DNA of 64,000 nucleotides from Alcaligenes faecalis (lineage in GTDB: Bacteria; Pseudomonadota; Gammaproteobacteria; Burkholderiales; Burkholderiaceae_B): contig NZ_CP168006.1 in assembly GCF_041521385.1 (NCBI RefSeq), forward strand, positions 2,724,295 through 2,788,294, given 5' to 3'. Of the stretch, positions 3,326-56,568 are shown one piece after another. A program made the translations under genes and the position numbers. The first letter of the stretch is position 1. Every line of letters starts with the position of its first letter. The notes under the pieces are model-generated. The model worked only from the letters and a program-made list of their open reading frames with translations, was not told where the DNA came from and searched no databases.

Positions 3326-3355
3326 AAAAAGGGGCAGATTTTTCTGCCCCTTTTT
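3326..3355 (-). terminator. Intrinsic terminator of hslVU
   Basis: A perfect 13-base-pair stem (3326-3338 with 3343-3355) with a four-T loop; its five A/T pairs at the base give U-tracts on either strand. It lies about 45 bases beyond the end of hslU, and the rest of the 3165-3400 spacer shows no gene. Confidence 0.85.
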
Positions 3356-3400
3356 CGTGTCCGACAACAAGCGGAATAAGCCTTGAATCCAGGGCTGAAC

Positions 3401-4738: not shown

Positions 4739-4755
4739 GGTGGGGTATCCGGCTG

Positions 4756-5289: not shown

Positions 5290-5473
5290 GATTTCCTTCC
5301 TTTAAGGTACCCATTTGGGGGCCCGGCGGGAAATTTCAAGGATCAATGTGCAGGCCTGTAAATTTGCTGATGTAGATGGTCTAGCCGAACAGTTTTTGTT
5401 TGCGGGCAACGTTTTTAGCCGGATGGAGTTAGGGCTGGTTTGTTATGAAGCGACTCGTGGTCCAGTAAGTAAA

Positions 5474-5510
5474 AAACCCTCCCATTGCCTATTTGCTTAT
5501 GGGAGGGTTT
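5474..5510 (-). terminator. Intrinsic terminator of dksA
   Basis: AAACCCTCCCAT (5474-5485) pairs with ATGGGAGGGTTT (5499-5510), a 12-base-pair stem with a 13-base loop. The A run at 5471-5476 gives the U-tract on the minus strand, so it ends dksA transcription 25 bases after its stop. The rest of the spacer up to hslV (to 5289) shows no gene. Confidence 0.85.
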
Positions 5511-5534
5511 GACGTACTTCAAACGCTGGTGGTT

Positions 5535-5972
5535 TTAATCCCCAAACATTTTTTGACGCTTCTCACGACGTTCCTGTGCTTCCAAAGACAGGTTGGCCGT
5601 GGGACGTGCCAGCAAACGGGGCAGGCCGATGGGTTCGCCTGTTTCCTCACACCAGCCGTATTCGCCCGAATCGATCAGGGCGATGGACTGTTGCACTTTC
5701 TTGAGCAGTTTGCGTTCGCGATCACGGGTACGCAGCTCCAGAGCGTGCTCTTCTTCGATCGTGGCACGGTCAGCCGGGTCAGGAACGAACTGGGTTTCAC
5801 GCAGGTTTTCCGTTGTAGCGCCCGCGTTGGCCAGAATGTCTTGCTCTAGCTGGCGCAAGCGATGCTTGAAAAACTCCAGCTGGGCGGCGTTCATGTAGTC
5901 TGACTCAGGCATCGCCAAAAGCTCCTGCTCGGTCAGCAGGGTTGTAGTACTGTCATGTGACTTAGTTGCCAT
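5535..5972 (-). CDS. dksA: DksA, RNA polymerase-binding transcription factor
   Basis: The 145-residue protein has the DksA coiled coil with the tip motif DPADRA (Asp65, Asp68, Ala70), which enters the RNA polymerase secondary channel and acts with ppGpp in the stringent response. The following globular part, YGWCEETGEPIGLPRLLARP then LSLEAQERRE, corresponds to the zinc finger, but only Cys108 of the four zinc cysteines is kept. This is the form common in betaproteobacteria, so it is unlikely to be damaged; it should bind zinc weakly or not at all. It lies between hslVU and the zinc-homeostasis genes and ends in its own terminator. Confidence 0.95.
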   Translation of the reverse strand: MATKSHDSTTTLLTEQELLAMPESDYMNAAQLEFFKHRLRQLEQDILANAGATTENLRETQFVPDPADRATIEEEHALELRTRDRERKLLKKVQQSIALIDSGEYGWCEETGEPIGLPRLLARPTANLSLEAQERREKRQKMFGD

Positions 5973-6054
5973 GATGCTTACCTCTTGTTGACGTCTGGGA
6001 GCCTGTAACTGTCGTCACGCGCAATCGCTCCGCATTTACTGAATAATTATTAAT

Positions 6055-7155
6055 TCAAACCAGGCAATTCTCCAGGCCCTGGGTGAATATGTCTTGTGGC
6101 AATTTGCGGCCAATAAAGACCAGCTTGGTGCCTTTTTTATCTTTGGCCAGCCAGGCACTGCCAGGCTCGGCGCTCATCATCATGTGTACGCCTTGAAAGA
6201 GCATACGGCGATTGATGCCCTTCAGATACAAAATGCCTTTGTAGCGCATCAGATCTGGTCCAAATACCTGGACAATGCCTGACAGAAAGTCTTCCAACCG
6301 TTCGGGGTCGAAAGGACGGTCCGAGCGGAATACGAAAGCTCCGATTTCGTCATTGTGAGCGGCGTGCTCGTGGTGATGATGGTGGTGATCGTGTCCGCAA
6401 CCCGGACCACAATCGCCGTCATCGCCATGGGCATGATCGTGGTGGTGATCATGGCCGTCTGCCGCATCGGGGTGTTGCTCTGCCAGAAATTGTGGGTCAA
6501 TGTCCAGAATGGAATTCAGGTTGAAACCACTGACTTCCAGCAAATCCTTGATGTCGGTTTCACCAAAGTGAACCGGCGTAATGGTGGCTCGCGGGTTGAT
6601 GCGGATCAGGCGGGCACGCAGGGCCTCGTAATCTACATCGTTGACCAGATCTTTTTTGGAGATCAGCAAGCGGTCCGCAAAACCAACCTGTTTTTGGGCT
6701 TCTTCTTGTTGGTCCAGTGTAGCCATGCCATGTTTGGCATCCACGACGGTAATGACCGCATCCAGCCGATAGTAGTCGGCAATATCATCGTCCATGAAAA
6801 AGGTCTGGCAGACCGGGCCGGGGTTAGCCATGCCGGTGGTCTCGATGATGACGCGCTCGAACTTCAGTTCGCCTGCCTGACGGCGAACGCGCAAATCATT
6901 CAGGGTGCGCATCAGGTCGCCGCGCACGGTGCAGCATACACAACCGTTGCTCAGTTCGACGATTTCTTCCTGGGAGTCTTGCACCAACAATTCATTGTCG
7001 ATGCCTTCAGGCCCGAACTCGTTTTCGATGACGGCAATGCGTCGACCGTGATATTCGCTCAGGATGCGCTTGAGCAGCGTGGTTTTACCAGCGCCCAGAA
7101 AACCAGTCAGCACAGTGACTGGAACCATGTTGTTCAGATCTGATGCCGCGTTCAT
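6055..7155 (-). CDS. COG0523-family (CobW-like) metal-chaperone GTPase
   Basis: The 366-residue protein has the G3E GTPase layout: Walker A GFLGAGKTT (about residues 18-26), the metal-site motif GCVCC (71-75), IIETTGMANP, and the base-recognition motif SKKD (167-170). A His-rich loop with runs of HDHHHDH and six His in a row (about 234-267) precedes the CobW C-terminal domain. Such proteins hydrolyse GTP to deliver zinc or another metal to client enzymes. The start at 7155 was preferred over upstream codons because GAGG lies 7 bases before it and the extra 26 codons look non-coding. It sits 200 bases downstream of zur on the same strand, which supports a zinc role. Confidence 0.9.
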   Translation of the reverse strand: MNAASDLNNMVPVTVLTGFLGAGKTTLLKRILSEYHGRRIAVIENEFGPEGIDNELLVQDSQEEIVELSNGCVCCTVRGDLMRTLNDLRVRRQAGELKFERVIIETTGMANPGPVCQTFFMDDDIADYYRLDAVITVVDAKHGMATLDQQEEAQKQVGFADRLLISKKDLVNDVDYEALRARLIRINPRATITPVHFGETDIKDLLEVSGFNLNSILDIDPQFLAEQHPDAADGHDHHHDHAHGDDGDCGPGCGHDHHHHHHEHAAHNDEIGAFVFRSDRPFDPERLEDFLSGIVQVFGPDLMRYKGILYLKGINRRMLFQGVHMMMSAEPGSAWLAKDKKGTKLVFIGRKLPQDIFTQGLENCLV

Positions 7156-7354
7156 AAACATGCCTCGCAGTGGCGGGCGAAAGGTACAAGGCACGGCACC
7201 AGCCGCGGCTTCCTGCACCCATCTGCTCCGCACGAAAACAACGTGCGATTACATCACAGCCTTGCCTGTTGGGCAAACGGTGATCTGTAAAAATTCACAG
7301 AGGTTTGCCAATAGATCGGGGAATATATACCGATTGGCGGCAAAATACCATGTT

Positions 7355-7846
7355 TTAGGGGGCAGATAAGGGTTTTCGCTCGTTTTTAGCGGCAACGCAA
7401 CGTTGGCACAGGCCGCGCAACTCGGTCTCGTGGCCGGACAGGGCAAAGCCTGCTCCGCGTACACAGTCCGCCAGCCTTTGGCTTAAGTCTGGAGCGCACA
7501 GTTCCACCACGGTACCGCACTGGGTGCAGACGATCAGCAAGTCGTGGGGGTGGCCACCGGCATCTACACAGGCGGTCCAGGCATTGACGGCATCCAGCCG
7601 GTGAATCAGACCTTCTTCCGTCAGAAAGTCCAGGGCGCGGTAAACGGTAGGGGGTTTGGCGCCGGGTTGAAACTCGCGAACCAGATCCAGTAGTTCGTAG
7701 GCGCGCAAGCTGCGTTGGGCCTGAATCAGGATTTCCAGTACCTGACGGCGAATTGAAGTCAGCCGTTTACCGCGTTCCAGGCAAAGCTGTTCAGCGGTCG
7801 CAAGCTGATCTTCAATAGCGTTGGGCGTAAGAATATGTACAGGCAT
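7355..7846 (-). CDS. zur: Zur, Fur-family zinc uptake regulator
   Basis: The 163-residue protein has the Fur-family winged helix (RLTSIRRQVLEILIQAQRSLRAYELL, then PPTVYRALDFLTEEGLIHRL) and a C-terminal dimerisation domain with two CxxC motifs (CTQC and CQRC) that hold the structural zinc. The GGHPHDLLIVCTQCG block with its paired His residues is typical of Zur. Placement directly opposite znuCBA, with a palindromic Zur box between them, supports Zur over Fur. With zinc bound it should repress znuCBA and probably its own gene. The ATG at 7846 begins MPVHILTPN and has the box 23 bases upstream. Confidence 0.93.
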   Translation of the reverse strand: MPVHILTPNAIEDQLATAEQLCLERGKRLTSIRRQVLEILIQAQRSLRAYELLDLVREFQPGAKPPTVYRALDFLTEEGLIHRLDAVNAWTACVDAGGHPHDLLIVCTQCGTVVELCAPDLSQRLADCVRGAGFALSGHETELRGLCQRCVAAKNERKPLSAP

Positions 7847-7866
7847 GGCGCTTGATGGAATGTTTG

Positions 7867-7882
7867 TTATGTTATAACATCT
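7867..7882. promoter_or_regulatory. Zur box in the zur-znuCBA divergent control region
   Basis: The perfect 12-base palindrome ATGTTATAACAT (7869-7880) matches the core of the known Zur operator consensus (GAAATGTTATAnTATAACATTTC). It lies 23 bases upstream of zur and 49 bases before the first plus-strand reading frame, so one bound dimer could control both directions. Confidence 0.8.
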
Positions 7883-7928
7883 TTGGAAAAAAATGAAATT
7901 CCAAATCTAGCCGCATTATCCCTGTTTC

Positions 7929-8078
7929 ATGTCCTGTCCTCAATTTCCCTCGACTTTCCGCAGTCCGGCACCTCGTCGTTCGCTCTTGCTGGCCTCGGCC
8001 GGACAGCGCGTACTGGGCGCTTTGTGCGTGGCAGGAGCCCTGTGGCTACTGACTGCCTGGGCATTGGGCGCGTGGTAA
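7929..8078 (+). CDS. Possible 49-residue membrane protein in the znuCBA leader
   Basis: An ATG at 7929 opens a 49-codon frame ending in TAA at 8076-8078, four bases before the znuC start. The product has a basic, Pro/Arg-rich N-terminus and one hydrophobic segment near the C-terminus (LGALCVAGALWLLTAWALGAW). There is no clear ribosome-binding site. The stop sequence TAAGG gives a weak Shine-Dalgarno for znuC, so the frame may couple translation to znuC. I do not recognise a family. It may be a real small protein of the zinc uptake operon or only leader sequence; a regulatory role is speculation. Confidence 0.35.
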   Translation: MSCPQFPSTFRSPAPRRSLLLASAGQRVLGALCVAGALWLLTAWALGAW

Positions 8079-8082
8079 GGGC

Positions 8083-8805
8083 ATGAGTTCACATCAAACC
8101 TTGATCGAACTCGAGCATGTCGCGCTGGGCTGGAAAGACAAAATCGCTCTGCGTGATATCAGCGGCTGTTTTAACCGAGGCTCCTTGACGGCTATCGTCG
8201 GGCCTAACGGTGCTGGTAAATCCACCTTGCTCAAAGGGCTGACCGGGCAGATCAATCCCCTGAAAGGGCGCATTGCCGTCGATAGCGGTTTTCTGGACCA
8301 ACTGGCCTTGTTGCCACAAATGGGCGATCTGGACAAAAGTTTTCCGGTGACGGTGCATGATCTGGTGGCCATGGGAGCCTGGAAGCGTGTGGGAGCCTGG
8401 GGCGGTTTCCCCAAAGTCGAGCACGAACGCATTAGCCACGCGCTGGAGCAGGTGGGGCTGGCTGATTTTGCGCGTCGTTCCATTGGCACCTTGTCGGGCG
8501 GTCAGTTACAGCGCGCCTTGTTTGCCCGCATGATGGTGCAAGATGCCCAGATCCTCTTGCTGGATGAGCCCTTTGCTGCGGTGGATCGCGCAACCTCGGA
8601 TGAGTTGATGAACCTGATTCTGGACTGGCACAAACAGGGCCGTACTGTGATGGCCGTGCTGCATGATCTGGATATGGTGCGTAGTTGTTTTCCGCAAACC
8701 GTGCTGCTTGCTGGGCAGGTGGTGGGCTGGGGTGAAACCGAGGCGGTGCTGACGCCGGAGAACCTGCATCTGGCTCGCCATTTGTGTGCGGGGGACTATC
8801 TATGA
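8083..8805 (+). CDS. znuC: ZnuC, ATP-binding subunit of the zinc ABC transporter
   Basis: The 240-residue ATPase has Walker A GPNGAGKSTLL, the signature LSGGQLQRALFARMM, Walker B ILLLDEPFAAVD and the switch His (AVLHDLD). It powers high-affinity zinc import through ZnuB from the ZnuA-bound pool. It is the first firmly identified gene of znuCBA; its TGA overlaps the znuB ATG (ATGA). Control by Zur is inferred from the palindrome upstream. Confidence 0.93.
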   Translation: MSSHQTLIELEHVALGWKDKIALRDISGCFNRGSLTAIVGPNGAGKSTLLKGLTGQINPLKGRIAVDSGFLDQLALLPQMGDLDKSFPVTVHDLVAMGAWKRVGAWGGFPKVEHERISHALEQVGLADFARRSIGTLSGGQLQRALFARMMVQDAQILLLDEPFAAVDRATSDELMNLILDWHKQGRTVMAVLHDLDMVRSCFPQTVLLAGQVVGWGETEAVLTPENLHLARHLCAGDYL

Positions 8806-9703
8806 CGGCGTTGATGGATGTGTTGCTTGGCCCCTTCATGGACTTCGGTTTCATGAAACGCGCTTTGGCGGGCTCGTTTGCCTTGGCCGCAGCGGCTGGG
8901 CCTTTAGGTGTATTTCTGGTGCTGCGCCGCATGAGCCTGATGGGCGATGCGATGGCCCATGCCATCTTGCCCGGTGTGGCGGTGGGTTTTCTGACGGCGG
9001 GGCTGTCTTTAAGTGCGATGGCCATAGGCGGCATGATTACCGGCCTGGTCGTGGCCTTGCTGGCCGGTCTGGTGGCCCGCCTGACACCACAACGCGAGGA
9101 TGCCAGTTTTGCGGCTTTCTATCTGGTGTCCCTGGGGCTGGGAGTGCTGCTGGTGTCGCTGCGTGGCTCCAATATGGATTTGATCCATGTGCTGTTTGGC
9201 ACGGTGCTGGGGCTGGATGATGCGTCTTTGCTGCTGGTCACCAGCAGTACGACGATTACGCTGATTATTCTGGCTCTGGTGTTCCGCCCCTTGGTGTTGG
9301 AGTGCCTGGACCCGATCTTTCTGCGCACCCAAGGTGGGCGCGGCTCGGTGGTTCACATGTTGTTCTTGTTCATGCTGGTCATCACGCTGGTGGCTGGCTT
9401 CCAGGTTCTGGGGACCTTGATGGTGGTGGGGATCATGATGCTGCCCGCCGCCTCGGCTCGGTTCTGGGTGTATTCCGTAGGCCGACAAATGCTGGTGGCG
9501 GCCTTGCTGGGCATGATCAGCGCCTATCTGGGGCTGCTGTTCTCGTACTACTACAACGTACCGGCTTCGCCCGCGATCATCCTGGCGGCGGGCGCGTTTT
9601 ATTTTCTTTCTATCACCTTTGGCCCCCAAGGCGGTTTGCTGCGTGCTTATTCCCAATGGCGCGCACGACGTCGGCGCATGGCCTCTCTCTTGGAGCACGA
9701 TTG

Positions 9704-9704
<1 letters not shown>
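8802..9704 (+). CDS. znuB: ZnuB, permease subunit of the zinc ABC transporter
   Basis: The 300-residue integral membrane protein belongs to the ABC-3 family of metal permeases. It has about eight hydrophobic segments and the family blocks MKRALAGSFALAAAAGPLG, LRRMSLMGDAMAHAILPGVA (the loop that contacts the ATPase) and VVGIMMLPAASARFW. The start at 8802 was chosen because it overlaps the znuC stop as ATGA and the product then begins MTALMDVLLGPFMDFGFM, the usual N-terminus. Its own stop overlaps the znuA start, so all three subunits are translationally coupled. Confidence 0.93.
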
Positions 9705-10786
<1,082 letters not shown>

Positions 10787-42546: not shown

Positions 42547-42631
42547 GCCCGGGTGGTGAAATTGGTAGACGCAGGGGACTCAAAATCCCCCGCCGCAAGG
42601 CGTGCCGGTTCGATTCCGGCCCCGGGCACCA
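42547..42631 (+). tRNA. tRNA-Leu (anticodon CAA)
   Basis: The acceptor stem GCCCGGG (42547-42553) pairs with CCCGGGC (42621-42627), followed by discriminator A and an encoded CCA. The anticodon stem GGGGA/TCCCC holds the loop CTCAAAA, giving anticodon CAA for UUG leucine codons. A long variable arm (CGCCGCAAGGCG) and the T-arm GCCGGTTCGATTCCGGC confirm a class II leucine tRNA. It marks the left border of the accessory island: every gene to about 56.5 kb is non-core in style. Confidence 0.97.
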
Positions 42632-43567: not shown

Positions 43568-43617
43568 ATACCGCGTCCGACCTTGCCGGACAGGCTGCGG
43601 GGGTGGAATGGAGACTG

Positions 43618-43635
43618 TTATTTCGTTTATTTCGT
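43618..43635 (+). repeat. Tandem 9-mer TTATTTCGT x2 upstream of the HTH gene
   Basis: Two perfect adjacent copies lie 58-75 bases before the HTH gene start. Downstream are candidate -10 elements TAGAAT (43653-43658) and TATAGT (43668-43673). The copies would overlap or abut the -35, so they are a candidate operator for the HTH protein itself. Confidence 0.55.
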
Positions 43636-43692
43636 TTTTCTCCGTTTCGGCATAGAATGTAACTTTGTATAGTCGAAGCACTAAAATTCAGA

Positions 43693-44160
43693 ATGAATGT
43701 CCCAATGCAGCTCTTCCAGAATCGGCCCGATGTATGGGAGGTTCAGATGGCCATCCACGGGCAGCGTGTTCTTGCTTCCTGTCTTTCGGGGCGGAGCAAG
43801 ACCAGGCGGATTCAGGTCTTCGGTGACGGTGATGGGGTATACGAGATGGAGCTGTCTACCTCGACATTGCGTCTTGTGGAAGAAATATTGCTTGAAATAG
43901 CCAACGGAAGAGCAGTCCGGATCGTGCCTGTGCATGCTGAGCTGACTACGCAGGAAGCTGCTGATCTGCTTAATGTATCGAGGCCTCACATGGTGAAGCT
44001 GCTGGAGGATGGGGAATTGCCATTTCATCGCACTGGCAAGCATCGGCGCATCCGCTTGGATGATCTGATGCGGTTCAAGGAAACAAGAGAGAAGGACAGC
44101 GAAAAGGCCATGGAGGAATTGAGCGATCAGGCCCAGAGGCTGGGGATGAGATGCGAATGA
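43693..44160 (+). CDS. Helix-turn-helix (excisionase/antitoxin-type) DNA-binding protein
   Basis: The 155-residue protein has an HTH_17-type winged helix in its second half: LTTQEAADLLNVSRPHMVKLL then GELPFHRTGKHRRIRLDDLM. That layout, with an N-terminal dimer part and a C-terminal acidic helix (EKDSEKAMEELSDQA), is typical of excisionase-family antitoxins that normally precede a PIN-domain toxin. No PIN gene follows; the next gene is the methyltransferase, 58 bases downstream. It most likely regulates the restriction locus, perhaps through the 9-mer repeats upstream. Confidence 0.8.
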   Translation: MNVPMQLFQNRPDVWEVQMAIHGQRVLASCLSGRSKTRRIQVFGDGDGVYEMELSTSTLRLVEEILLEIANGRAVRIVPVHAELTTQEAADLLNVSRPHMVKLLEDGELPFHRTGKHRRIRLDDLMRFKETREKDSEKAMEELSDQAQRLGMRCE

Positions 44161-44218
44161 CATTTCATATCGCCCAATCTTCGGAGTGTGCACTCAACAA
44201 TGAATGCATGGAAGGTAG

Positions 44219-45850
44219 ATGATGCCTGTTCCGATAATCGATCTGTTTGCAGGGCCGGGAGGGCTTGGTGAGGGGTTCGCCTCATTGAGGGGGCACAGGC
44301 AACAGCCGTTCTTCGAGATCGCTCTTTCCATCGAGAAGACCGCAGTTGCGCATCGCACCCTGACATTGAGGGCAGTGTTCAGACGCCTGCGTGGCACGAA
44401 GGACATCCGGCATTACTACAGCTACGTGCAAGGTAAGATTGACGAGTCTGAATTCCGCGCACTCCCGGCTGTAGAAAGCGCCTTCGAGCATGCCTCAAAA
44501 GAAGCAAGGTGTCTGGAACTTGGCAAGTCAGATGAGGCCGCCATCGATGCCGAGATACGGGCCGCACTGAAAGGTCAGGAAACCTGGGTGCTTATCGGTG
44601 GCCCGCCGTGTCAAGCGTATTCCCTTGCTGGCCGCTCCCGTCGGGCGAACGACAAGAATTTTCACAAGGATGAAAAGCACTTCCTCTACAAGGAGTACCT
44701 GCGGATCATTCAAGTGCACAAGCCAGCGATCTTCGTGATGGAGAACGTCAAGGGGCTGCTCTCGTCGAAGCACTTCGGCAATCCGATGTTCGAGAAGATC
44801 ATCTCCGACCTGTCCTCGCCAGAGGAAGGTCTTGAGTATGAGATCCGCTCCTTCACGAAGGCCGGCAACAGCGATTCTCTGGAGCCTGCTGACTATCTCA
44901 TTCATTCGGAACGCTATGGTATACCTCAAAGCAGACAGCGCGTGATTCTGCTTGGCGTTAGAAAAGGGCTTGGCATTCCCCAGCACAGACTGTTGACTCC
45001 CGTTGCAAGCCCCACAACTGTCAGCCAGGCAATTGACGACCTGCCGAAGATCAGAAGCCGGTTGTCCAGGGACGACTCGCTCGACGCGTGGCGAAAGGCT
45101 GTCCTGGCTGCTCCAGCCTACGTCAAGGGATGGAAAACGGAAAACGAGTCCACCCTGATCAACTTGATGCGAGACTTTGCAGCCTCGGCGACCAGTGTCA
45201 CAACGGGTGGTGCCTTTATTGAGAAGGAATACAAAAGGACAAGGAATCAGACAGAACTTCAGAAGTGGCTGCTTGATCGAAGCCTTGGTGGAGTATGTCA
45301 GCATGAAGCGAGATCGCACATGGCTACCGATCTGGCGCGATATCTTTTTTCGGCCACTTTTGCGCATTCGCAGGGATATTCGCCAAGGCTGAATATTTTT
45401 CCTCCGAAGCTTCTACCTGACCATATCAATGTCCATGTTCTGGGCGAAAACCAGCCCATGCCATTCAATGATCGCTTCAGGGTTCAGTGCAGAAATGAAC
45501 CGGCAACCACTGTGGTTGCTCACATTGCCAAGGATGGCCACTATTACATTCATTACGACCCTTCGCAGTGCAGGAGTCTCACTGTCAGGGAAGCTGCGCG
45601 TCTGCAGACTTTTCCAGACAACTATTTCTTTGCTGGCAACCGCACCGAACAGTACACCCAAGTCGGGAATGCCGTTCCCCCCTTGCTGGCCCGAAAACTC
45701 GCCGAAGTCGTGCGCAGCATTCTGAACAGAATGACTCGGGAGAAGCGAAAACAGGAAGGTGTTCACTGGTGCCAGGAAGAGCTGGAAAGCCAGCGTCATC
45801 ACCTTCCTGCGAAGCGTGGTCAGATGCCGCTGCTTGCGGAGGTCGATTGA
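44219..45850 (+). CDS. dcm: C5 DNA cytosine methyltransferase (Dcm family)
   Basis: The 543-residue protein has the ordered C5-methylase motifs: I IDLFAGPGGLGEGF (residues 6-19), IV GGPPCQAYSLAG with the catalytic Cys near 130, VI MENVKG, VIII QSRQRVILLG, IX LTVREAARLQTFPD, and X QVGNAVPPLLA. The target-recognition region lies between VIII and IX. It is longer than average owing to a segment of about 60 residues between motifs I and IV. It methylates the host at the site that the downstream ATPase-helicase-nuclease operon presumably restricts. ATG 44219 or 44222 with AAGG upstream. Confidence 0.93.
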   Translation: MMPVPIIDLFAGPGGLGEGFASLRGHRQQPFFEIALSIEKTAVAHRTLTLRAVFRRLRGTKDIRHYYSYVQGKIDESEFRALPAVESAFEHASKEARCLELGKSDEAAIDAEIRAALKGQETWVLIGGPPCQAYSLAGRSRRANDKNFHKDEKHFLYKEYLRIIQVHKPAIFVMENVKGLLSSKHFGNPMFEKIISDLSSPEEGLEYEIRSFTKAGNSDSLEPADYLIHSERYGIPQSRQRVILLGVRKGLGIPQHRLLTPVASPTTVSQAIDDLPKIRSRLSRDDSLDAWRKAVLAAPAYVKGWKTENESTLINLMRDFAASATSVTTGGAFIEKEYKRTRNQTELQKWLLDRSLGGVCQHEARSHMATDLARYLFSATFAHSQGYSPRLNIFPPKLLPDHINVHVLGENQPMPFNDRFRVQCRNEPATTVVAHIAKDGHYYIHYDPSQCRSLTVREAARLQTFPDNYFFAGNRTEQYTQVGNAVPPLLARKLAEVVRSILNRMTREKRKQEGVHWCQEELESQRHHLPAKRGQMPLLAEVD

Positions 45851-46281
45851 CCGACCACCAAGACAGGAGCATTGCCATGCAGCCACTCCTCAACCATACA
45901 TGCAGTTTTTACAGGCGAATGCTTCAGTGCGCACTCCCAGACAATGGCCACCCGCCAGTTGAGAGCTTTGAGGGCATCCATGTGTCGTCTGTCGCGTTCG
46001 ATGTTTCCCTGGAATTTCCGTCTCCAGAAGTTGCCATTCGTTCGCGGCGTGGTCGTGTATCGGCAACCGTCATGTCGATGCCAGAAACAGCCATGGACGA
46101 ATACCAAAGCCCTGTACTTCGGGAACACCATGTCAGGGGAGCCCGGCAGTTTCCTGACATGAAGTCTATACCGGAATCCTCTGGAGAAAAGAATAGTGCG
46201 GAGAGTGCGTTCCGGCCAAGTGTTCTTTCCTCTGATGCTCGACATCATGCGGCTGCGCTGCGGAGTCGTTGGTACACGCAT
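45820..46281 (-). CDS. vsr: Vsr, very short patch repair endonuclease
   Basis: The 153-residue enzyme has family features RSRMMSSIRGKNTWPERTLR, a fold start GFRYRLHVRKLPGSPDMVF and VHGCFWHRHDGC, with the catalytic Asp and the His of the zinc/metal site. It nicks T:G mismatches left when 5-methylcytosine deaminates, so it protects the genome from the neighbouring Dcm. It is on the opposite strand and its 3' end overlaps the last 31 bases of dcm, a tail-to-tail layout. Its start faces the MORC gene across a 144-base divergent region. Confidence 0.92.
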   Translation of the reverse strand: MRVPTTPQRSRMMSSIRGKNTWPERTLRTILFSRGFRYRLHVRKLPGSPDMVFPKYRALVFVHGCFWHRHDGCRYTTTPRTNGNFWRRKFQGNIERDRRHMDALKALNWRVAIVWECALKHSPVKTACMVEEWLHGNAPVLVVGQSTSASSGI

Positions 46282-46425
46282 GATCTGGATCGAGTGATAT
46301 CAGGGTGTGCGAAAAAAGAGGCGTATCGAAGAAGGCCGATTCGTTGAATGAAAAAAAGCCGCTGTATATGCTCAGAAGCTTAGCACGTTGCTGACAGCGG
46401 AGCACGTTGAAGGGGGAGTATCGAT

Positions 46426-47904
46426 ATGGCGAGGGAATGTAGACATCCACCAAGTGCAGCATGCCTTTCGGCATCGATGAGAGATCTTGGTTATTCACTT
46501 GAAACAGCTATCGCGGATCTGATAGACAACAGCATTTCCGCAGGCGCGGATGCGATCGATATCGTCTGCGATGTTTCGGGCGAACATCCTGTGCTTGTCA
46601 TTCTCGACAATGGCAGAGGCATGGACGAGGTGGAGCTGCGGGCTGCAATGCGTCATGGAACCGGAAACCCACGACAGCAGCGTTCTCCACAGGATCTCGG
46701 GCGCTTCGGCCTTGGACTGAAGACTGCATCGTTCTCCCAGTGTCGATCCCTCACGGTTGTGAGCAAGAGGGATGGCAAGGTTTGCGGTGCCGAATGGGAC
46801 CTGGATCGTATCGATGCAGCGGACGACTGGGTTCTGAGCATTCTCGATGAAGCTGACGTCCGTGCGCTGCCACACACCGAACGCCTGGGCAGCCGAGGCA
46901 CTGCCGTCATCTGGCAGAGGCTCGACCGGTTGATGGAAGATGAAGCTGGAGATCACAGCCAGGAAATCGTCAACGAGAAGCTTGAGGTGGTAGGGAGGCA
47001 TCTATCCCTCGTTTTTCACCGTTTTCTTTCCGGTGAGGTCAAGGGAAACTCCAGAATCTCGATTTCCATCAATGGTCATCCTGTTGCCACGTTCGACCCT
47101 TTCTGCAGGAAAAATCCTGCCACTCAGATGCTCCCGGAGGAGATAGTCCGGGTTGGTGATGCCGAAGTGCGTCTGCAGCCTTATGTGTTGCCTCATCACA
47201 GTCGGCTTTCCGCGTCCGAGTATGACTTCTACCAGGATCGCAGTGACTTCATCTCGAATCAGGGGGGCTACGTCTACCGGAACGGCCGACTGATGGCATG
47301 GGGAGACTGGTTCCGACTGGTGCCGAAAGGGGAAGCGACCAAGCTGGCCCGTGTGCAGATTGACTTTCCCAACAGCCTGGATGAGGCTTGGACAATCGAC
47401 ATCAAGAAATCACGTGCACGCCCACCGCATATGGTTCGTGAGCGCTTGCGTCAGATCATCAGCCAGATCACGGGCCGTAGCGTGAAGGTACATCGGGGAC
47501 GTGGGCAGAAACTGTTTCAGGAAACCCAGGCCCCGCTCTGGGAACGCTATGCCGATCATGATGGCATTCGGTTCGCAATCAATGCCCAGCATCCAATCAT
47601 TGCTTCCCTGGCAGACAAGCTTCCTCCAGAGGATGCAGAGCTGCTTCGCGTGCTGCTTGAATCAGTTGCGGGCTCCCTGCCTGTCGAAATGATCTATTCG
47701 GACTATTCGACGCACCCGCGTGAGATCAATCAGAGATCGGCGGATGAAAGTCAAGTCATGGAGAGGCTGAGGGGTCTGCGTCAGGCCCTTTACGGGACAG
47801 GCCCCGGGGATGCCAAGGCATTTCTTCAGGTCGTCAGATCCACACATCTTTTTGACGGCCAGACAGACCTGATCGATAAATACATAAGTGAGGAGTTTGC
47901 ATGA
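46426..47904 (+). CDS. GHKL ATPase of MORC/MutL type (defence operon)
   Basis: The 492-residue protein has the GHKL nucleotide-binding fold: N box ETAIADLIDNSISAGAD (Asn near residue 35), G1 box ILDNGRGMD, and G2 box GRFGLGLKTAS (about 90-100), then the MORC-like second domain with EWDLDRID and a later AWTIDIKKSRARPP segment with the lysine expected to contact ATP gamma-phosphate. Such ATPases dimerise on DNA on ATP binding. In prokaryotes this family is found with C5 methylases, Vsr, Z1 helicases and PD-(D/E)XK nucleases, as described by Iyer and Aravind. GGGGGAG lies 7 bases before the ATG. It opens an operon; its stop overlaps the next start (ATGA). Confidence 0.9.
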   Translation: MARECRHPPSAACLSASMRDLGYSLETAIADLIDNSISAGADAIDIVCDVSGEHPVLVILDNGRGMDEVELRAAMRHGTGNPRQQRSPQDLGRFGLGLKTASFSQCRSLTVVSKRDGKVCGAEWDLDRIDAADDWVLSILDEADVRALPHTERLGSRGTAVIWQRLDRLMEDEAGDHSQEIVNEKLEVVGRHLSLVFHRFLSGEVKGNSRISISINGHPVATFDPFCRKNPATQMLPEEIVRVGDAEVRLQPYVLPHHSRLSASEYDFYQDRSDFISNQGGYVYRNGRLMAWGDWFRLVPKGEATKLARVQIDFPNSLDEAWTIDIKKSRARPPHMVRERLRQIISQITGRSVKVHRGRGQKLFQETQAPLWERYADHDGIRFAINAQHPIIASLADKLPPEDAELLRVLLESVAGSLPVEMIYSDYSTHPREINQRSADESQVMERLRGLRQALYGTGPGDAKAFLQVVRSTHLFDGQTDLIDKYISEEFA

Positions 47905-50561
47905 GCATGACGGCTGTCACTCAGGAGCGGAATATCTCCAATGCACTGATTTCAGGCTTGGCCAACATGCCGGAAACGCCGACGCGCGAGCAGGTGGAGG
48001 AGAAGGCAAAACAGATTGCCGTGATATTCGGATATGAGGGAGATCTGCGCAACATTGTTGCCGAAGCCATGGAGTCTGTTGTGACTCGCATGGGAGCGGG
48101 AGTTTCACTTGTTGACGTCGATGCAAAGCACGATGACCAATGGGTTCACAAGCGAGAGGATGTTGACTGGACATACGCCAGGGCGTACGAGGAATTCCTT
48201 CGCAACGAGGGCTGGCCTCCGCAAATGGTCCAGTCGCTGAGCGATGTAACCACACGCATTCTGGGGCATCTTCAGGACCCGCTGAGCGAAGGAACGAGCT
48301 GGAATCGACGTGGCCTTGTTATTGGTCATGTGCAGTCTGGAAAGACGGCCAACTACACTGGTCTGATAGCTCGTGCCGCCGATGCGGGGTATAAGTTCAT
48401 TGTCGTCATCGCAGGCATTCACAACAACCTTCGCAGACAGACACAGCAGCGAATTGACGAGGCTTTCATCGGTCGATCGAGTGATCCAGAGGATCGCCGC
48501 AACATTGGTGTCGGTCTCACGCCGGGCTATCCACATCCGGCCACCCTTACCAACATCAACGGCGACTTCAATAAGAATACTGCAGCCAAGAGTGGCTGGA
48601 AGATCAACGATTTCAGCAAGCCGATCATTCTGATCATCAAGAAAAACGTCACGACGCTCACTGCATTGCACAAGTGGCTGAAGGCGCTCAACGCCGGAGG
48701 TGGAGATCGCATCTCCGATGTTCCCATGCTGTTGATTGACGACGAGGCCGACAATGCCTCGATCAACACGAACAAGGAAGATCTGGATCCGACCAAGACG
48801 AATGCGATGATTCGTCGAATTCTTGGGCTTTTTGCGAAATCCTGCTATGTCGGATATACGGCAACGCCATTTGCCAATATATTCATCAATCCGGATGCCT
48901 ATGGCGATGATGTCCGGGAAGAGCTTTTCCCTCGTGATTTCATCTATTGTCTGGATGCACCAACCACCTACTTTGGTGCGGAAAAGGTATTTCTCAACGA
49001 GGAAACCAGTGATTCGATCGTCAGACCGATTGATGATTGTGAGAATTTTATTCCCTATTCCCACAAGAGGGATGATTCCACTCATGAATTGCCGCCTAGT
49101 CTCTATCGCGCATTGGACGAATTCATCGTCGCCCGGGCCATCCGGAACCTGCGCGGTCAAGCAGGGAAGCATTGCTCGATGATGGTTAACGTCTCGCGAT
49201 TCGTGCCCGTACAGAGGGCCGTTCGTGACTTCCTGAGTCTCAGGGAGAAGAAGATCAGGGAAGCGGTTCTCGCCAACTACGCGATGCCGGAAGATGTTTC
49301 ATCAAGAAATATTTACATGCAGGGGCTGAAACAAGCATTCGATGACGAATATGCCGACGCGGGAAGCACGTGGGCGGAGGTCAAGTCGGCTCTCCATGAC
49401 GTTTTCGAGCATCTTCATCTTTTCGTCATCAATAGCAAGAGTGACGAAGTGCTCGACTACACCCGGTACGAGAAGGAAGGCGTCGGGCTGACGGCGGTAG
49501 CGGTCGGCGGTCTTAGCCTTTCACGAGGCTTGACCATAGAGGGATTGACCATCAGCTACATGTACCGCAACACGAAGATGTACGACACCCTCATGCAGAT
49601 GGGACGCTGGTTCGGCTACCGACCAGGCTTCGAGGATCTGTGCCGCGTGCATCTTTCCCGAGACTCCATAAACTGGTATTCACATATCGCTGGTGCCGCC
49701 GAAGAGCTGGTGCAGCAGGTCAAACGCATGCGACGCGATCGCCTCAGTCCGAAGGATTTTGGTTTTTACGTTCGTGCGCATCCAGACAGTCTGCTGATCA
49801 CGGCGGTGAACAAGATGCGTTCTGGCAAGAAGGAAACGGTTGAACAAAGTTTCAGTGGGCGACTTCGCGAGAGCTACATTGTGTCCACAGATTCCGAAGT
49901 GAATGCTAGAAATTTTTCGCTGATCACAGATCATTGGAAAAATGGTTTTGGTGGACGACCTCAGGAGCTGACCGAGAAGGGTTTCGTCTTTAAGGACGTG
50001 CCGGTTCAGGTGATCGAAGACTTCCTCATTCAGTTTGAATGTCATTCGAACTTTGCGGGGCAGAAGTCCGATGTGGTGAGCTATCTTGAAAGAATAGCGG
50101 CAAAACGCCCTTGGGCCGATGTTTTGTTGATATCACCTTCAGCGGGCTCGGGTGGCGATGCTCCTTTCACACTGCGGAATCAGGTGCGAGTTGTTGGGAA
50201 GGATCAACCTGCGGGCTCTTCCTGGCGTCTGAACAAAGACAGGGTTGCTTCGCGTGGTGACGAGAAACTGGGGCTCAGTGATCCACAGCGCGAGAAGGCA
50301 AAAATTCTTGCCGAAGGGAAAGACGGCCTGGGAGCCGTCTCTGATACCCATTACCGTGAGGTTCGCGAGAAACCTCTCCTCATGATTCACAGCCTGGAAC
50401 CCAAGGGGGATTCTGTGGCAGGTCCGATTGCCGCTTTCGGCATCAGTTTCCCTTTCGGAGACTATTTGACGACCATCAATGTCGTCGTTAACAAGGTCTG
50501 GCTCAAGCAGATGCAAGGCTATGTCGATGACCCTGACGATGAGGAGGACTACGATGCCTGA
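47901..50561 (+). CDS. Z1-domain superfamily II helicase/endonuclease-associated protein
   Basis: The 886-residue protein has a superfamily II core: Walker A-like GHVQSGKTANYTGL (about 142-155), motif II LLIDDEADNAS (about 277), GYTATPFANIFI, and the C-terminal Z1 block AVGGLSLSRGLTIEGLTISY followed by QMGRWFGYRPGFEDLCRVHL, containing the arginine finger. It is thought to translocate on or remodel DNA for the nuclease partner. The start overlaps the MORC stop (ATGA) and its stop overlaps the PD-(D/E)XK gene, so expression is coupled. A second ATG two codons on is possible. Confidence 0.9.
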   Translation: MSMTAVTQERNISNALISGLANMPETPTREQVEEKAKQIAVIFGYEGDLRNIVAEAMESVVTRMGAGVSLVDVDAKHDDQWVHKREDVDWTYARAYEEFLRNEGWPPQMVQSLSDVTTRILGHLQDPLSEGTSWNRRGLVIGHVQSGKTANYTGLIARAADAGYKFIVVIAGIHNNLRRQTQQRIDEAFIGRSSDPEDRRNIGVGLTPGYPHPATLTNINGDFNKNTAAKSGWKINDFSKPIILIIKKNVTTLTALHKWLKALNAGGGDRISDVPMLLIDDEADNASINTNKEDLDPTKTNAMIRRILGLFAKSCYVGYTATPFANIFINPDAYGDDVREELFPRDFIYCLDAPTTYFGAEKVFLNEETSDSIVRPIDDCENFIPYSHKRDDSTHELPPSLYRALDEFIVARAIRNLRGQAGKHCSMMVNVSRFVPVQRAVRDFLSLREKKIREAVLANYAMPEDVSSRNIYMQGLKQAFDDEYADAGSTWAEVKSALHDVFEHLHLFVINSKSDEVLDYTRYEKEGVGLTAVAVGGLSLSRGLTIEGLTISYMYRNTKMYDTLMQMGRWFGYRPGFEDLCRVHLSRDSINWYSHIAGAAEELVQQVKRMRRDRLSPKDFGFYVRAHPDSLLITAVNKMRSGKKETVEQSFSGRLRESYIVSTDSEVNARNFSLITDHWKNGFGGRPQELTEKGFVFKDVPVQVIEDFLIQFECHSNFAGQKSDVVSYLERIAAKRPWADVLLISPSAGSGGDAPFTLRNQVRVVGKDQPAGSSWRLNKDRVASRGDEKLGLSDPQREKAKILAEGKDGLGAVSDTHYREVREKPLLMIHSLEPKGDSVAGPIAAFGISFPFGDYLTTINVVVNKVWLKQMQGYVDDPDDEEDYDA

Positions 50562-51519
50562 GTCTTCACCGTGGGATGCAATCACCATTCCAGGAGCGGA
50601 CTTCAATGTCCGTCAGGTTGCTGTGAAAACTGCAGTTCCCTGCTTCTGGGGACGTGATGCTAATGGTTCTTGCCTGTTCATCGTTGAGCTTCAGGGGGAT
50701 CATGCGGTCCAGTATCGTAAGAACGCGGTCACAGTCAACGGTGTCGATGTCGATCTTCGCGCCGGCGACAGCGGGCGGCAACGTCTGATCCTTGCGCTTG
50801 AAAGGGAGGTTGATCGCGATCTCTTCGAGGGGCTGTGTCGCAGCCTTGCACTCGTGCTGGAGAACGCCACTGATTCGGCCAGTTCCCTGGCAGTTTCGCT
50901 GCTGCATCTCCGCCGTTGGAAAACATTCCTTTCCGGCAGAAGCCAGCATCTTTCTGCTGAGGATGTTCGAGGTATCTTCGCCGAAATCGTATTTCTGATG
51001 GAGCTGATCAATCGGAAAATACCAAGCGAAGTTGCAGTCGAATCTTGGCTTGGCCCGGAACGATCGCATCAGGACTTCATCTTTGGCAAAACGGCGGTCG
51101 AGGTCAAATCACTGTCGGGTACTGAACGAAGCAGTATTAGAATTTCATCGGAAGATCAACTTGAATCGTTGAATGACCTGCTGTTCCTGCGTGTATACAG
51201 GATGAGCAGTCTGGCCGATTCTGCAGTAGCACGCTCGCTAAATGAAATCGTCTTTGAGGTTCAGCTGTTGCTTGATGAGGCGGACGCTGTCGAAGCCTTC
51301 GACAGGAAGCTTGTGGCTCGCGGCTACGCACCGCTCCCTGAGTACGATCAACCACGCTTCGTTGTTAGTGAAACACTCACTTATTGCGTCAGTGAAGAAT
51401 TTCCTCGCCTTGTGCGCTCGAAACTTCAGGCTGGGATCGCCAACGTCGCCTACGACATCAGGCTGGAAGCGATTTCCTCGCATCAGTGTGATGAGGCCGT
51501 GATCTTTGGAGGGGAATGA
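50554..51519 (+). CDS. PD-(D/E)XK motif protein (DUF4420-like), predicted nuclease of the defence operon
   Basis: The 321-residue protein carries the nuclease core SHQDFIFGKTAVEVKSLSG (Asp near 174, Glu-Val-Lys near 183-185), preceded by the FAEIVFLMELIN helix with a conserved Glu. It matches the PD-(D/E)XK proteins that accompany Z1 helicases. Its likely role is DNA cleavage of unmethylated invader DNA. The start was set at 50554 (MPESSPWD), overlapping the Z1 stop by 8 bases with GAGGAG upstream; the frame is open earlier within the Z1 gene. Its stop overlaps the AIPR start. Confidence 0.87.
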   Translation: MPESSPWDAITIPGADFNVRQVAVKTAVPCFWGRDANGSCLFIVELQGDHAVQYRKNAVTVNGVDVDLRAGDSGRQRLILALEREVDRDLFEGLCRSLALVLENATDSASSLAVSLLHLRRWKTFLSGRSQHLSAEDVRGIFAEIVFLMELINRKIPSEVAVESWLGPERSHQDFIFGKTAVEVKSLSGTERSSIRISSEDQLESLNDLLFLRVYRMSSLADSAVARSLNEIVFEVQLLLDEADAVEAFDRKLVARGYAPLPEYDQPRFVVSETLTYCVSEEFPRLVRSKLQAGIANVAYDIRLEAISSHQCDEAVIFGGE

Positions 51520-53591
51520 TGGAACAGACCACCGAGGAATTCTTCCATGACTTTCGACAGGAATTGCTGGCTGAAGCTGAGGTTTGTGGGTTTCAGCTCG
51601 ATGCATTCATGGAAACAGTTGCTGCTGAACTTGTCGAAACAGGATTCACCGAGGGATTCGAGCTGTGTCACTATCGTCCGCCACAGGGTGGCATACGTGT
51701 GGATGGATACTGGTTCAATGACGAGGGGAACCTCGATCTTTTTGTCGCTGATTTCGATGCCCGTGCCGAGCTGGCTTCCCTGACGAAGACGGAACTTGAA
51801 GCGACATTCAAACGTCTGTCCAAGTTTTTCGAGGCAAGTATCGACAGGGATCTTGCGGTTGACCTTGAGGTCACTTCGCCTGGGTACGGTCTAGCCAAAC
51901 AGATTGCCGACCGCAGGGGCGGCATCAGTTCACTTAACCTGATTCTTCTCTCCGAACGCACGCTCAGCGGGACAGTGCAGAGCCTTCCTGAAGGGGACGT
52001 TGCCGGTGTTCCCGCCAGCTATCACGTATGGGATATCTCGCGACTTCATCGTCAGCGCAGCTCACGAAGTCACAAGGAGCCGCTTGATCTGGACTTCGTG
52101 GAGATGTTCGGCAAGGGCATCGCCAGCCTTCCGGCTCATCTGGGAGCTGATGCCTATCAGTCCTTCCTCATGGTCATGCCTGCAGATTTTCTTGCAACCC
52201 TTTACGGAAAATTCGGGGCGCGCCTGCTTGAGCAGAACGTCCGCACGTTCCTGCAGGCTCGTGGCAGCGTGAACAAGGGAATCCGAGCAACCATCCTGAA
52301 TGAGCCGGAGATGTTCTTGGCCTATAACAACGGGGTTACGGCCACTGCACAGCGCGTCGAGACCGAAACAACGGACTCTGGTCTGGTGATCACGAAGGTT
52401 GTCGACCTTCAGATCGTCAATGGTGGGCAGACCACGGCATCACTGTTCCATACGCGGAAACGGGACAAAGCGGATTTGTCCCGAATATTCGTCCAGATGA
52501 AGCTCTCTGTCATCGACAGTCAGCAGAGCGAGATGGTCGTGCCGAAGATCTCGGAATACGCCAATACTCAGAACAGGGTGAATGCTGCCGACTTCTTCTC
52601 GAATCATCCGTTCCATGTTCGGATGGAAGACTTCTCACGGCGCATCTGGGCCCCAGCACAGAAAGGAGCCACCCGCGAGACGCGCTGGTTTTATGAGCGT
52701 GCACGTGGTCAGTATGCCGATGCGCAGTCGAAGCTCAGGCCGGCAGAACAGCGTCGCTTCAAGGCCGAATATCCAAAGCCACAGATGTTCACAAAGACAG
52801 ACCTCGCAAAATTCGAGAATGTCTGGGATGAGCACCCTCGCTGGGTCAACCTTGGTTCGCAGAAGAACTTCGCGCAGTATGCCAAGCGCATCGGAAGCGA
52901 GTGGGAAAAATCTTCCGATACCTTTAACGAGCTCTACTTCAAGAGGGCTGTCGCTCGTGGAATGGTTTTCCGCGCCACAGAGCGCATTGTTTCCGCGCAG
53001 GCTTGGTACAACGGCGGATATCGAGCCAACATTGTGGCTTATACGCTTGCCGTGCTTGCTGAGATCGCAAGGTGCAGGAACGGGGCGATCGATTTTTTGG
53101 CGATCTGGAATGCTCAGAAGGTGGATCCAATTCTGGAGGCCGCGATTGCTTCTGCTGCATCCGTGGTGAATGAGGACATCATCGACCCGCCCCCTGGCAT
53201 TTCGAATATAGGTGAGTGGTGCAAGCGGGAGGGATGCTGGACACGTATTCAGGCCAAATCCAACGTCATCGCTGCGCGTCTGGACTCTGGGTTCTTTGAT
53301 CAATTGGTATCGCTCGATGAGCAAGTGGAGACCGAGCGAAGTGCGAGGAAGACACAGAAGATCGACGACGGGATCGAAGCTCAGAAGAAAGTATTGGCGG
53401 TTCCGTCTGTTGATTGGATTCGCCTGAACAGGACACTTCTGGAGAAAGGAGTTCTCACGCCAAAGGAAATGGGTGTACTCAAGATCGCAATGCAGATTCC
53501 TTTGAAAATTCCAACCGAAAAGCAATGCGCTGTGCTGCTGGAAATCATCGAGAAGGGGCGTCTGGAGGGCGTGATCCTGAAGGATACGTAG
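51516..53591 (+). CDS. AIPR-domain (abortive infection phage resistance) protein
   Basis: The 691-residue protein has the AIPR signature: YNNGVTATAQRVE (about residue 270) and LQIVNGGQTTASLFH (about 297), followed by a conserved NTQNRVNAADFFSNHPFHVRM block. Homologues occur in abortive infection loci and with MORC/Z1 restriction operons. The N-terminal 160 residues hold a further weakly conserved domain (ASLTKTELEATFKRLSKFFE). Biochemistry is not established. It is the last gene of the operon and overlaps the nuclease gene as ATGA. No clear terminator is seen after it. Confidence 0.88.
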   Translation: MMEQTTEEFFHDFRQELLAEAEVCGFQLDAFMETVAAELVETGFTEGFELCHYRPPQGGIRVDGYWFNDEGNLDLFVADFDARAELASLTKTELEATFKRLSKFFEASIDRDLAVDLEVTSPGYGLAKQIADRRGGISSLNLILLSERTLSGTVQSLPEGDVAGVPASYHVWDISRLHRQRSSRSHKEPLDLDFVEMFGKGIASLPAHLGADAYQSFLMVMPADFLATLYGKFGARLLEQNVRTFLQARGSVNKGIRATILNEPEMFLAYNNGVTATAQRVETETTDSGLVITKVVDLQIVNGGQTTASLFHTRKRDKADLSRIFVQMKLSVIDSQQSEMVVPKISEYANTQNRVNAADFFSNHPFHVRMEDFSRRIWAPAQKGATRETRWFYERARGQYADAQSKLRPAEQRRFKAEYPKPQMFTKTDLAKFENVWDEHPRWVNLGSQKNFAQYAKRIGSEWEKSSDTFNELYFKRAVARGMVFRATERIVSAQAWYNGGYRANIVAYTLAVLAEIARCRNGAIDFLAIWNAQKVDPILEAAIASAASVVNEDIIDPPPGISNIGEWCKREGCWTRIQAKSNVIAARLDSGFFDQLVSLDEQVETERSARKTQKIDDGIEAQKKVLAVPSVDWIRLNRTLLEKGVLTPKEMGVLKIAMQIPLKIPTEKQCAVLLEIIEKGRLEGVILKDT

Positions 53592-53756
53592 TCTTGAAAA
53601 TAACGTAACGTATCAGCATGTCGTATTGCCTCGCTTCTTTCCTTTCCATGATTGATCCAATGTTGGCTATATGGGGAAAGTGAGTACAACATACCTTTTG
53701 TTCGGCCGGAGCCCGTGCCGTGGTGCTGGTTGAAGTTATCTGTGAAGGACTTGCCC

Positions 53757-54065
53757 ATGGTTCAGGCGCGTAAGCGTTATATGGCCCATGTGCATGGGGT
53801 AGGCTTCCGAATTATTGGTGAGACCTTTGCGGCACTTCCCGTTGCTCAGCGCATCACGCTATCGGGTTTTTCTCAGCGCCATGACCCGGCTACTGGGCAG
53901 TTGCGTGATGATTATTTGTACTCTGTGAATGTGGATCGTGCTCAATGGTCTGAGCTCAATTTCCAGGCTCTTGAGATGATTGACGTGGTGGAGGCACTGG
54001 CTCAGTTTGATCTTCGGCGCAATATGAGCAGGACAGGTGTGTTCAAGGCCATTGAACCTTTTTGA
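53757..54065 (+). CDS. Orphan 102-residue protein between the defence operon and the helicase
   Basis: The product starts MVQARKRYMAHVHGVGFRII and is a mixed alpha/beta soluble protein with a C-terminal helix-rich end (EMIDVVEALAQFDLRRNMSR). AAGGA lies 8 bases before the ATG at 53757. No family was recognised. It is separated from the AIPR gene by 165 bases, so it may not be in the same transcript, and it converges on the helicase gene. It could be an accessory, inhibitor or regulator of either system. Confidence 0.55.
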   Translation: MVQARKRYMAHVHGVGFRIIGETFAALPVAQRITLSGFSQRHDPATGQLRDDYLYSVNVDRAQWSELNFQALEMIDVVEALAQFDLRRNMSRTGVFKAIEPF

Positions 54066-54095: not shown

Positions 54096-56279
54096 TCAGA
54101 GCAGCATCACGAACTCCCCCACCACCCGATAGCGATAGGCGTTATCGGCATTTAGCTCGATGACTTCATAGCTCGGGTCGCTGGAGCGGGGTTTCAAGAA
54201 AATCCTTTTATGTTCCCAGCCGTCCTCAGTATGGGTTTTGGTGCTTTCATATTCTTTGACGGTGAATCGTGTGCCTTCATCGCCGTCTTGGGGCGACAGG
54301 CATTCCACCAGGACGATCTTGCCGTTGCGGCTGCCGCCCGAATCTTGGCGGAACAGGCAAATGGAAGCATTCGGGATGATCATGTTCATGGACTCACCGA
54401 CAACCTGGCAGGCGAACATGTCTTTTTTGGGTTCTACATTCTGTGGCACGCCAACCCATTGTGTTTGTTCTACGTGCTGTTGCTCGCTGAAGCTGCCTGC
54501 TGCGGCTTGCAGATCATAGAGAGGGACGGCATTTACCCACGGCACGAGTGTTGGTGCTGGTGGCAGTTCTTGGGGCTGGGTGGGACGGTAGCTGGGAATA
54601 TGTTTTTTCAGGTATTCGCGCAGCGCCGGGTCGCAGGCATACACGTAGGTGCCTTTGATCCCACGAAGCATGATTGTGTTGTAGATATTGAGGATGTACT
54701 GCTTCAGCTCAGTTGCCGTTTTTTTGGAGTGTTTGCCATTACGATCCAGGTAGTTGTTTTCGTCGATGACAATTTCGTTGGTGGCACTGTTGTAGCTGAT
54801 CTCTTTCCCAAAGATAACGCCGGTGTAATTCAGGTCGTAGCCTTGGGTTGTGTGAATGCAGCCGACCTCATTTTCTGTGCCGATTGTGTTGATCCAGTCT
54901 GTATTGGTTCGGTTCCAGCGCAGTTTTACGGTGTCTATTTCGATGTCGTGAAGCTTGGGGTTTTTCTTGGAGTCCCATGGCCAGGCGTAGCCAGCCACTA
55001 GTCGAGCCAAGCCATATTGCTGGTTCTTGTGCTCAATTTCCCTGACTAAGTCAGCTGCGTTGTCAAAGAACAAAAACTCATATTTCCCGGTTCGCAGTTG
55101 CTCGTTTTCTGAGAGCTGGATATGAAGAAGTCGGTCAATAAAGTCCACATAGTCTTGGCCTGCCTGGACGCGGTATTGTGAGGTCAAGGTCATGACCTTC
55201 GACTGTTCTGATTGCTTTATTTTTTGGAAGTCCGCCGCATTCGCATCCGATGGCCTGATCGATTGATTAGGGTCGTAGAAGAAAACCGCTTTTTTTGCCT
55301 GTTGCGTTACCCAATCCACCTCGCTGCATGTGTGTTTGTCCAAACCCAAGGCGGCGCATGCCTGGTCGAAATGTTTATAGTAGGATCCAAGGTTTACACG
55401 TTGGCGTAGTCGGTGTGACTCATCGACCAAGACGATGTCGTAGTCCTTCTGGGCCAGCTTAGATGGGTTGATCACCATATCAGGATGCAAGCCAGCCACG
55501 TTCTTGAAAGCGCGTTTTAACGTGGTCCGAAATGAGGCCATGGGAACCACGAGGGCCATGCGGGGATTGGGGTAACGTTGTTTGAACTGAGTCAGCAGTG
55601 TGCGGAGCTCGTTTTCTTCTTCCGAGAACTCCTGAAGATTCAGTTCTGCTTCGTCGGTGTGAATCAGTTTGAACAGGAAGATTGCCAGAACAGATTTTCC
55701 TGTGCCTGCACCACCTTGAACCAGCAAGTGGCGAACGTTGCCATCAAGCAAAGCGCGCAGGATTTCAATCAGGCTCTGGCGTTGATCGAATGACAAGGCT
55801 TTGTAGGGCGAGTATTTGAAAACATCAGAGTTATCAATCGACTCCAGCGAGTGTTTGGCGATTCCCTGGCCTCGTAGCTTGTCCCAGACCTCCCGGAAGA
55901 TTTGACTGTAGACCTCATCTTTTTGATAGTAGTTGTGATCGGTCAGACCAAGATTTCCGTTGAGCAGCTCGAAGCATCCATCAGCCGCCATATATTTAAT
56001 CAGAGTGGACTCGATATCAAGCGTAGCGGATTTGTTGAAATGTGAACTGCTGATCAAATGAGCGGTGTTGAGCAGTTTTTTATGCTCGTGTAGCAGGTGG
56101 GTGTTCAGGCGGTTTAGCGCACTGGTCGTTTCTCCGACATAGGCGCGTCGTTTGGCCTTGTGGCTGAGGATGTAAACCAAGGGCCAGTTCCCAGCAGCAT
56201 AAGCATTGGATCTTATCTCCGCCAAAGCAAGGTTTGAAAACAGGTATTGGTTTACTTCTACACGATGTGGCTGACTCAT
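54096..56279 (-). CDS. GIY-YIG nuclease - DUF2075-like helicase - LexA/S24-like peptidase fusion
   Basis: The 727-residue protein has three parts. Residues about 30-110: a GIY-YIG nuclease (WPLVYILSHKAKRRAYVGET with an Arg and His further on). About 160-590: a P-loop helicase of the DUF2075/Schlafen-like group, with QGGAGTGKSVLAIFLF (Walker A near 190), IVLVDESHRLRQ (motif II) and CIHTTQGYDLNYTGVIFGKE. C-terminal ~125 residues: an S24/LexA-like domain with Ser in VVGESMNMIIPNAS and a candidate catalytic Lys in RFTVKEYES, the pair used for self-cleavage in LexA and UmuD. This suggests DNA-damage-triggered release or activation of the nuclease-helicase. MSQPHR at 56279 was chosen as start; ATG at 56357 would add 26 basic residues. 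Confidence 0.88.
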   Translation of the reverse strand: MSQPHRVEVNQYLFSNLALAEIRSNAYAAGNWPLVYILSHKAKRRAYVGETTSALNRLNTHLLHEHKKLLNTAHLISSSHFNKSATLDIESTLIKYMAADGCFELLNGNLGLTDHNYYQKDEVYSQIFREVWDKLRGQGIAKHSLESIDNSDVFKYSPYKALSFDQRQSLIEILRALLDGNVRHLLVQGGAGTGKSVLAIFLFKLIHTDEAELNLQEFSEEENELRTLLTQFKQRYPNPRMALVVPMASFRTTLKRAFKNVAGLHPDMVINPSKLAQKDYDIVLVDESHRLRQRVNLGSYYKHFDQACAALGLDKHTCSEVDWVTQQAKKAVFFYDPNQSIRPSDANAADFQKIKQSEQSKVMTLTSQYRVQAGQDYVDFIDRLLHIQLSENEQLRTGKYEFLFFDNAADLVREIEHKNQQYGLARLVAGYAWPWDSKKNPKLHDIEIDTVKLRWNRTNTDWINTIGTENEVGCIHTTQGYDLNYTGVIFGKEISYNSATNEIVIDENNYLDRNGKHSKKTATELKQYILNIYNTIMLRGIKGTYVYACDPALREYLKKHIPSYRPTQPQELPPAPTLVPWVNAVPLYDLQAAAGSFSEQQHVEQTQWVGVPQNVEPKKDMFACQVVGESMNMIIPNASICLFRQDSGGSRNGKIVLVECLSPQDGDEGTRFTVKEYESTKTHTEDGWEHKRIFLKPRSSDPSYEVIELNADNAYRYRVVGEFVMLL

Positions 56280-56568
56280 GGCGCTGGATGAATGATCTCT
56301 ATTTTTCTTGGTAGGTTTTGCTCGGTTTCTGTCCGTTTGACATGGCTGGTAAATCATAGCCTATTGGGATGAGCTGGTTTTGAGACCTTTTCTGTTTAAG
56401 TCGGGCAGGCCGATGTGGATGCCAGGGCGTGTCATGGTTTCAGATACGTGGATCAGGATGGTGCTAACTCTAACTGCCAGCAACCTCGCATAGCTATAAC
56501 AAAAGACAAGTAGACTCAGGCGCAGCGTGTCAGTGCATTTGACGACTTTCGGGGGAGTGCTAACAGCG

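Follow-up and report, generated by a model that had tools for sequence, protein, structure and literature searches.

The MzaABCDE system, reportedly that of Gao 2020, is one of several defence systems to which we compared a seven-gene cluster from Alcaligenes faecalis, found in a 64,000-nucleotide stretch of contig NZ_CP168006.1 (positions 2,724,295 to 2,788,294; "the window" below is this whole stretch). Operons of this kind were predicted by Iyer 2008, an ancestry that the initial annotation of the cluster had rightly recognized. Miller 2022 (PMC9523054), in the portions of its text available, describes this gene set as a putative 'Type II' defence system, prints 'DUF4220' in the definition, and in the Type II section gives no regulator family, operator or Vsr, tying 'DNA repair endonucleases' to Type I. 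The locus examined here is an MzaBCDE-like set joined to Dcm and Vsr, a variant of a kind already predicted. It probably methylates the host cell's DNA as a mark of self and attacks phage DNA that lacks the mark, and its first gene looks, from sequence comparison, like a regulator that was taken, along with the DNA element serving as its switch, from a toxin-antitoxin module and is now without the toxin.

When comparing the locus proteins with NCBIfam profiles, we found homologues of MzaB, C, D and E in the order B-C-D-E, with E-values from 1.8e-35 to 9.5e-152 and bit scores below the equivalog cut-offs (MzaB 329.7/850, MzaC 506.8/1500, MzaD 122.7/420 and MzaE 354.7/1050). PADLOC profiles show this likeness to MzaABCDE too, which the initial annotation does not mention. 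No match to the sigma factor MzaA was found among the locus proteins (for Dcm, among the best 25 of 56 PADLOC matches), and the locus differs from MzaABCDE in its added Dcm, Vsr and helix-turn-helix (HTH) leader. Re-examination found all seven genes intact, at the positions and with the ATGA or 8-base overlaps that had first been described, and the gene set (HTH, Dcm, Vsr, MORC ATPase, helicase, DUF4420 nuclease and AIPR) was as originally named. The features are as follows.

42547..42631, + strand: tRNA-Leu (caa), bounding the hot spot on the left
43594..53729, + strand: shared cassette, the extent aligned by Neopusillimonas maritima (L040), exchanged middle excepted
43621..43634, + strand: operator-like repeat TTTCGTTTATTTCG, 72 bases upstream of where the HTH gene starts
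43693..44160, + strand: HTH_17 antitoxin-type leader, 155 amino acids
44157..44222, + strand: mini open reading frame (mini-ORF) of 21 codons, overlapping both the stop of the HTH gene and the start of dcm
44219..45850, + strand: C5-cytosine DNA methyltransferase (Dcm), 543 amino acids, best PADLOC profile DrmMII
45820..46281, - strand: Vsr-type mismatch endonuclease, 153 amino acids
46426..47904, + strand: MORC/MutL-type GHKL ATPase (MzaB-like), 492 amino acids
47901..50561, + strand: MzaC-like gene (called a Z1 helicase in the initial annotation)
50554..51519, + strand: DUF4420 PD-(D/E)XK nuclease (MzaD-like), 321 amino acids
51516..53591, + strand: AIPR protein (MzaE-like), 691 amino acids

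The leader protein is about 47-58% identical to HTH_17-PIN antitoxins of plasmids CP033467, CP057042 and NZ_CP016951. A PIN-domain gene directly follows the HTH homologue in three of the four plasmid regions fetched (the fourth record is unannotated), and a PIN match lies directly downstream of 14 of the 19 HTH homologues in the class sample. No PIN match was found in the window (below an E-value of 0.5), nor in the 80 loci. In the window, L003, L016 and L040, one or two mismatch-free copies of the motif TTTCGTTTRTTKCG stand about 58-73 bases ahead of the HTH gene. The motif also precedes all three plasmid HTH-PIN cases (exact in two, with 2 mismatches in NZ_CP016951). Allowing at most 2 mismatches, it lies upstream of 12 of the 19 HTH homologues, as against 0 to 0.08 per sequence in shuffles, the pattern having been derived from the same sequences in which it was counted; window-wide, the motif shows no excess over chance. 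The earlier description of the leader as antitoxin-like is supported. The mini-ORF bridging HTH and dcm is a possible translational relay. Elsewhere, at about 1501-2775 of L151, a PIN-less leader of the HTH family precedes a pair that by eye is DUF1778-like and GNAT-like, an antitoxin again heading foreign cargo.

Defence islands often contain toxin-antitoxin genes, and the leader could be debris, a decaying HTH-PIN module that happens to lie before dcm. The broken HTH in L040 fits such decay. However, the ratio of non-synonymous to synonymous substitution rates (dN/dS) of the HTH gene between the window and the L003/L016 copies is 0.18-0.20, indicating purifying selection, and operator-like repeats have been retained. 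Because the values against L003 (dN/dS 0.196, dS 1.19) are near those of other locus genes, the HTH gene must have travelled with the system.

The leader slot of other loci, whose families were assigned by Pfam scans on representatives, bears on the same question. It holds a Phd/YefM antitoxin in L009, L010, L012, L036, L037, L047 and L048, AbiEi_3 in L041, and other HTH regulators in L002, L006-L008, L058, L024 and L028; in L023 and L025 the Phd leader is degraded, as debris would be. An all-frame profile search gave ten Phd hits, nine of them in this slot, and all hits for HTH and AbiEi fell there too; most hits were self-hits of the profile-building sequences (exceptions: L010, L023, L025 and L062 for Phd, L040 for HTH). 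The hits outside that set, which argue against debris, placed Phd in the slot in three of four cases (L010, L023 and L025, with L062 elsewhere) and HTH in the slot of L040. The Phd leader overlaps dcm by 4 bases in L009, L012 and L047 and ends at most 10 bases from it in L010 and L036; TAGCTAAAATRGCT lies upstream of 8 of 10 Phd cases and of 0 of 16 control stretches. Five Phd leaders also appear to be under purifying selection (dN/dS 0.06-0.20 in computable pairs). Debris is an unlikely explanation in our estimation. An antitoxin-family leader is a recurrent minority trait of these loci, intact in 11 of the 57 Dcm-first loci (window counted) and seen at one of 19 Dcm-anchored places (L222, by eye). 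Just upstream of dcm, L026 carries an AbiEii toxin (3181-4134, Pfam) and L015 an AbiE-like pair (4245-6322, weak match and by eye); these are apparently toxin-antitoxin neighbours, not orphan antitoxins.

We tentatively propose, as a reading with well below even prospects, that this family has repeatedly captured toxin-less antitoxins of HTH-PIN, Phd/YefM and AbiEi type with their operators, as unstable repressors that sense infection. A phage that shuts off host expression would let the labile antitoxin decay, dcm and the defence genes would be derepressed, and methylation and restriction would rise when needed; the defence operon itself would stand where the module's toxin stood.

The initial annotation supposed that Dcm would mark self, that the ATPase, helicase and nuclease would destroy unmodified DNA, and that AIPR may be an abortive-infection arm; the last four proteins are called the core here. 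When co-occurrence was tested elsewhere, the proteins were found together in other genomes as well. Dcm carries the GGPPCQ, ENVKG and IX/X motif blocks with intact catalytic residues, and matches the DrmMII profile PDLC02649 at 310.5 bits (PADLOC); the catalytic residues of the DUF4420 nuclease are likewise intact, with E144, D174 and E183-x-K185 invariant across 44 sequences. Models give AIPR residues 1-187 a PD-(D/E)XK-like fold and residues of about 205-360 (segment tested 190-433) a ParB/sulfiredoxin-like fold, which suggests that AIPR combines a nuclease-like with a ParB/Srx-like domain. The MORC/MutL-type ATPase, from about residue 360 on, is part of the exchanged cassette. By eye, a GCTTAGCATG-like element, which may serve the core operon as promoter or operator, lies between vsr and the MORC gene in the window (46282-46425), L006, L014, L040 and L041.

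Several observations weigh against these readings. Dcm-Vsr reassorts freely with the core between loci, 6 of the 19 Dcm-anchored places have no core gene found nearby (two of them at most 5.1 kb from the contig start), and 43 of the 57 Dcm-first loci have no recognized antitoxin leader, intact or damaged, which also counts in favour of debris. Free reassortment would fit either a single site shared by methylase and nuclease or a core that reads no site. The core might instead not be a modification-dependent restriction machine at all but sense something else, with Dcm-Vsr a protective or regulatory passenger; the core occurs without detected Dcm in L068 and L077, and the MZA system that has been validated works with no Dcm linked to it. 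We hold this alternative to be somewhat improbable and prefer self-marking by Dcm. The genome also has a second C5 cytosine methylase (G000:C1:4096457-4097740), with no Vsr found adjoining.

Across 141 alignment columns, the locus Vsr shares 40% identity with its E. coli counterpart. It might act in restriction beyond T:G repair, nicking Dcm sites while the MORC protein stands in for MutL, since it adjoins a MutL-like ATPase and a helicase, an analogy drawn by Iyer 2008. The constancy of Vsr in these loci is also much greater than next to other C5 methylases, and Vsr covaries with Dcm (partial 0.43). However, Vsr went undetected in 12 of 74 loci, covariation with the core is hardly any (partial -0.15 to 0.18), and ordinary repair explains the Dcm-Vsr pair, as in E. 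coli. We consider such a role quite improbable.

In the close relative G002 (flanks 96-97% identical), alignment to the window stops at 42655 and resumes at 53728, coinciding with the right end of the L040 alignment at 53729; SIR2-like, HerA and HNH genes fill the interval at the same tRNA-Leu site (L116, G002:C1:2786500-2800000, 6138-10429), a probable alternative defence cassette. Given these two cassettes and differing spacings in other relatives (only the G002 cassette being annotated), we consider the site a defence hot spot. The island's right end cuts a DUF4236 protein, intact at 422 amino acids in G002, to a 137-amino-acid C-terminal remnant (53652-54065). Beyond it (54096-56357, - strand), a 753-amino-acid chain with GIY-YIG, Schlafen-group-3 helicase and S24 peptidase domains, intact also in L116, is an unusual fusion and possibly another defence gene. 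Dcm-core loci L002, L003, L006, L007, L008 and L016 share upstream neighbours, by eye of integrative-conjugative-element type, on which the system may ride.

Among other known systems, class 2 DISARM shares a DrmMII-like methylase with the locus; DrmA, DrmB and DrmC had no match among the eight locus proteins scanned (PADLOC), and DISARM methylases differ in specificity (CCWGG, and a different motif in Serratia). One earlier account of such operons contains, in its available portion, no leader regulator, cassette exchange or AIPR fold, and antitoxin-family leaders or operators for these loci are undescribed in the titles and abstract openings of the literature searched, a search largely outside subscription papers. 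The RptR repressor of type I restriction-modification (RM) islands (PMC12255303) and RM C proteins (PMC3874152) are, in the available parts of these sources, analogous in first-gene repressor, promoter repeats and RM-type cargo. RptR is there a different protein of no known sequence class with a TAGCTA site; Phd-type leaders also have TAGCTA-containing repeats upstream. With HTH_17-PIN type II toxin-antitoxin modules the locus shares the leader homologue and the upstream operator-like repeat, whereas the PIN toxin is missing here and dcm occupies its position.
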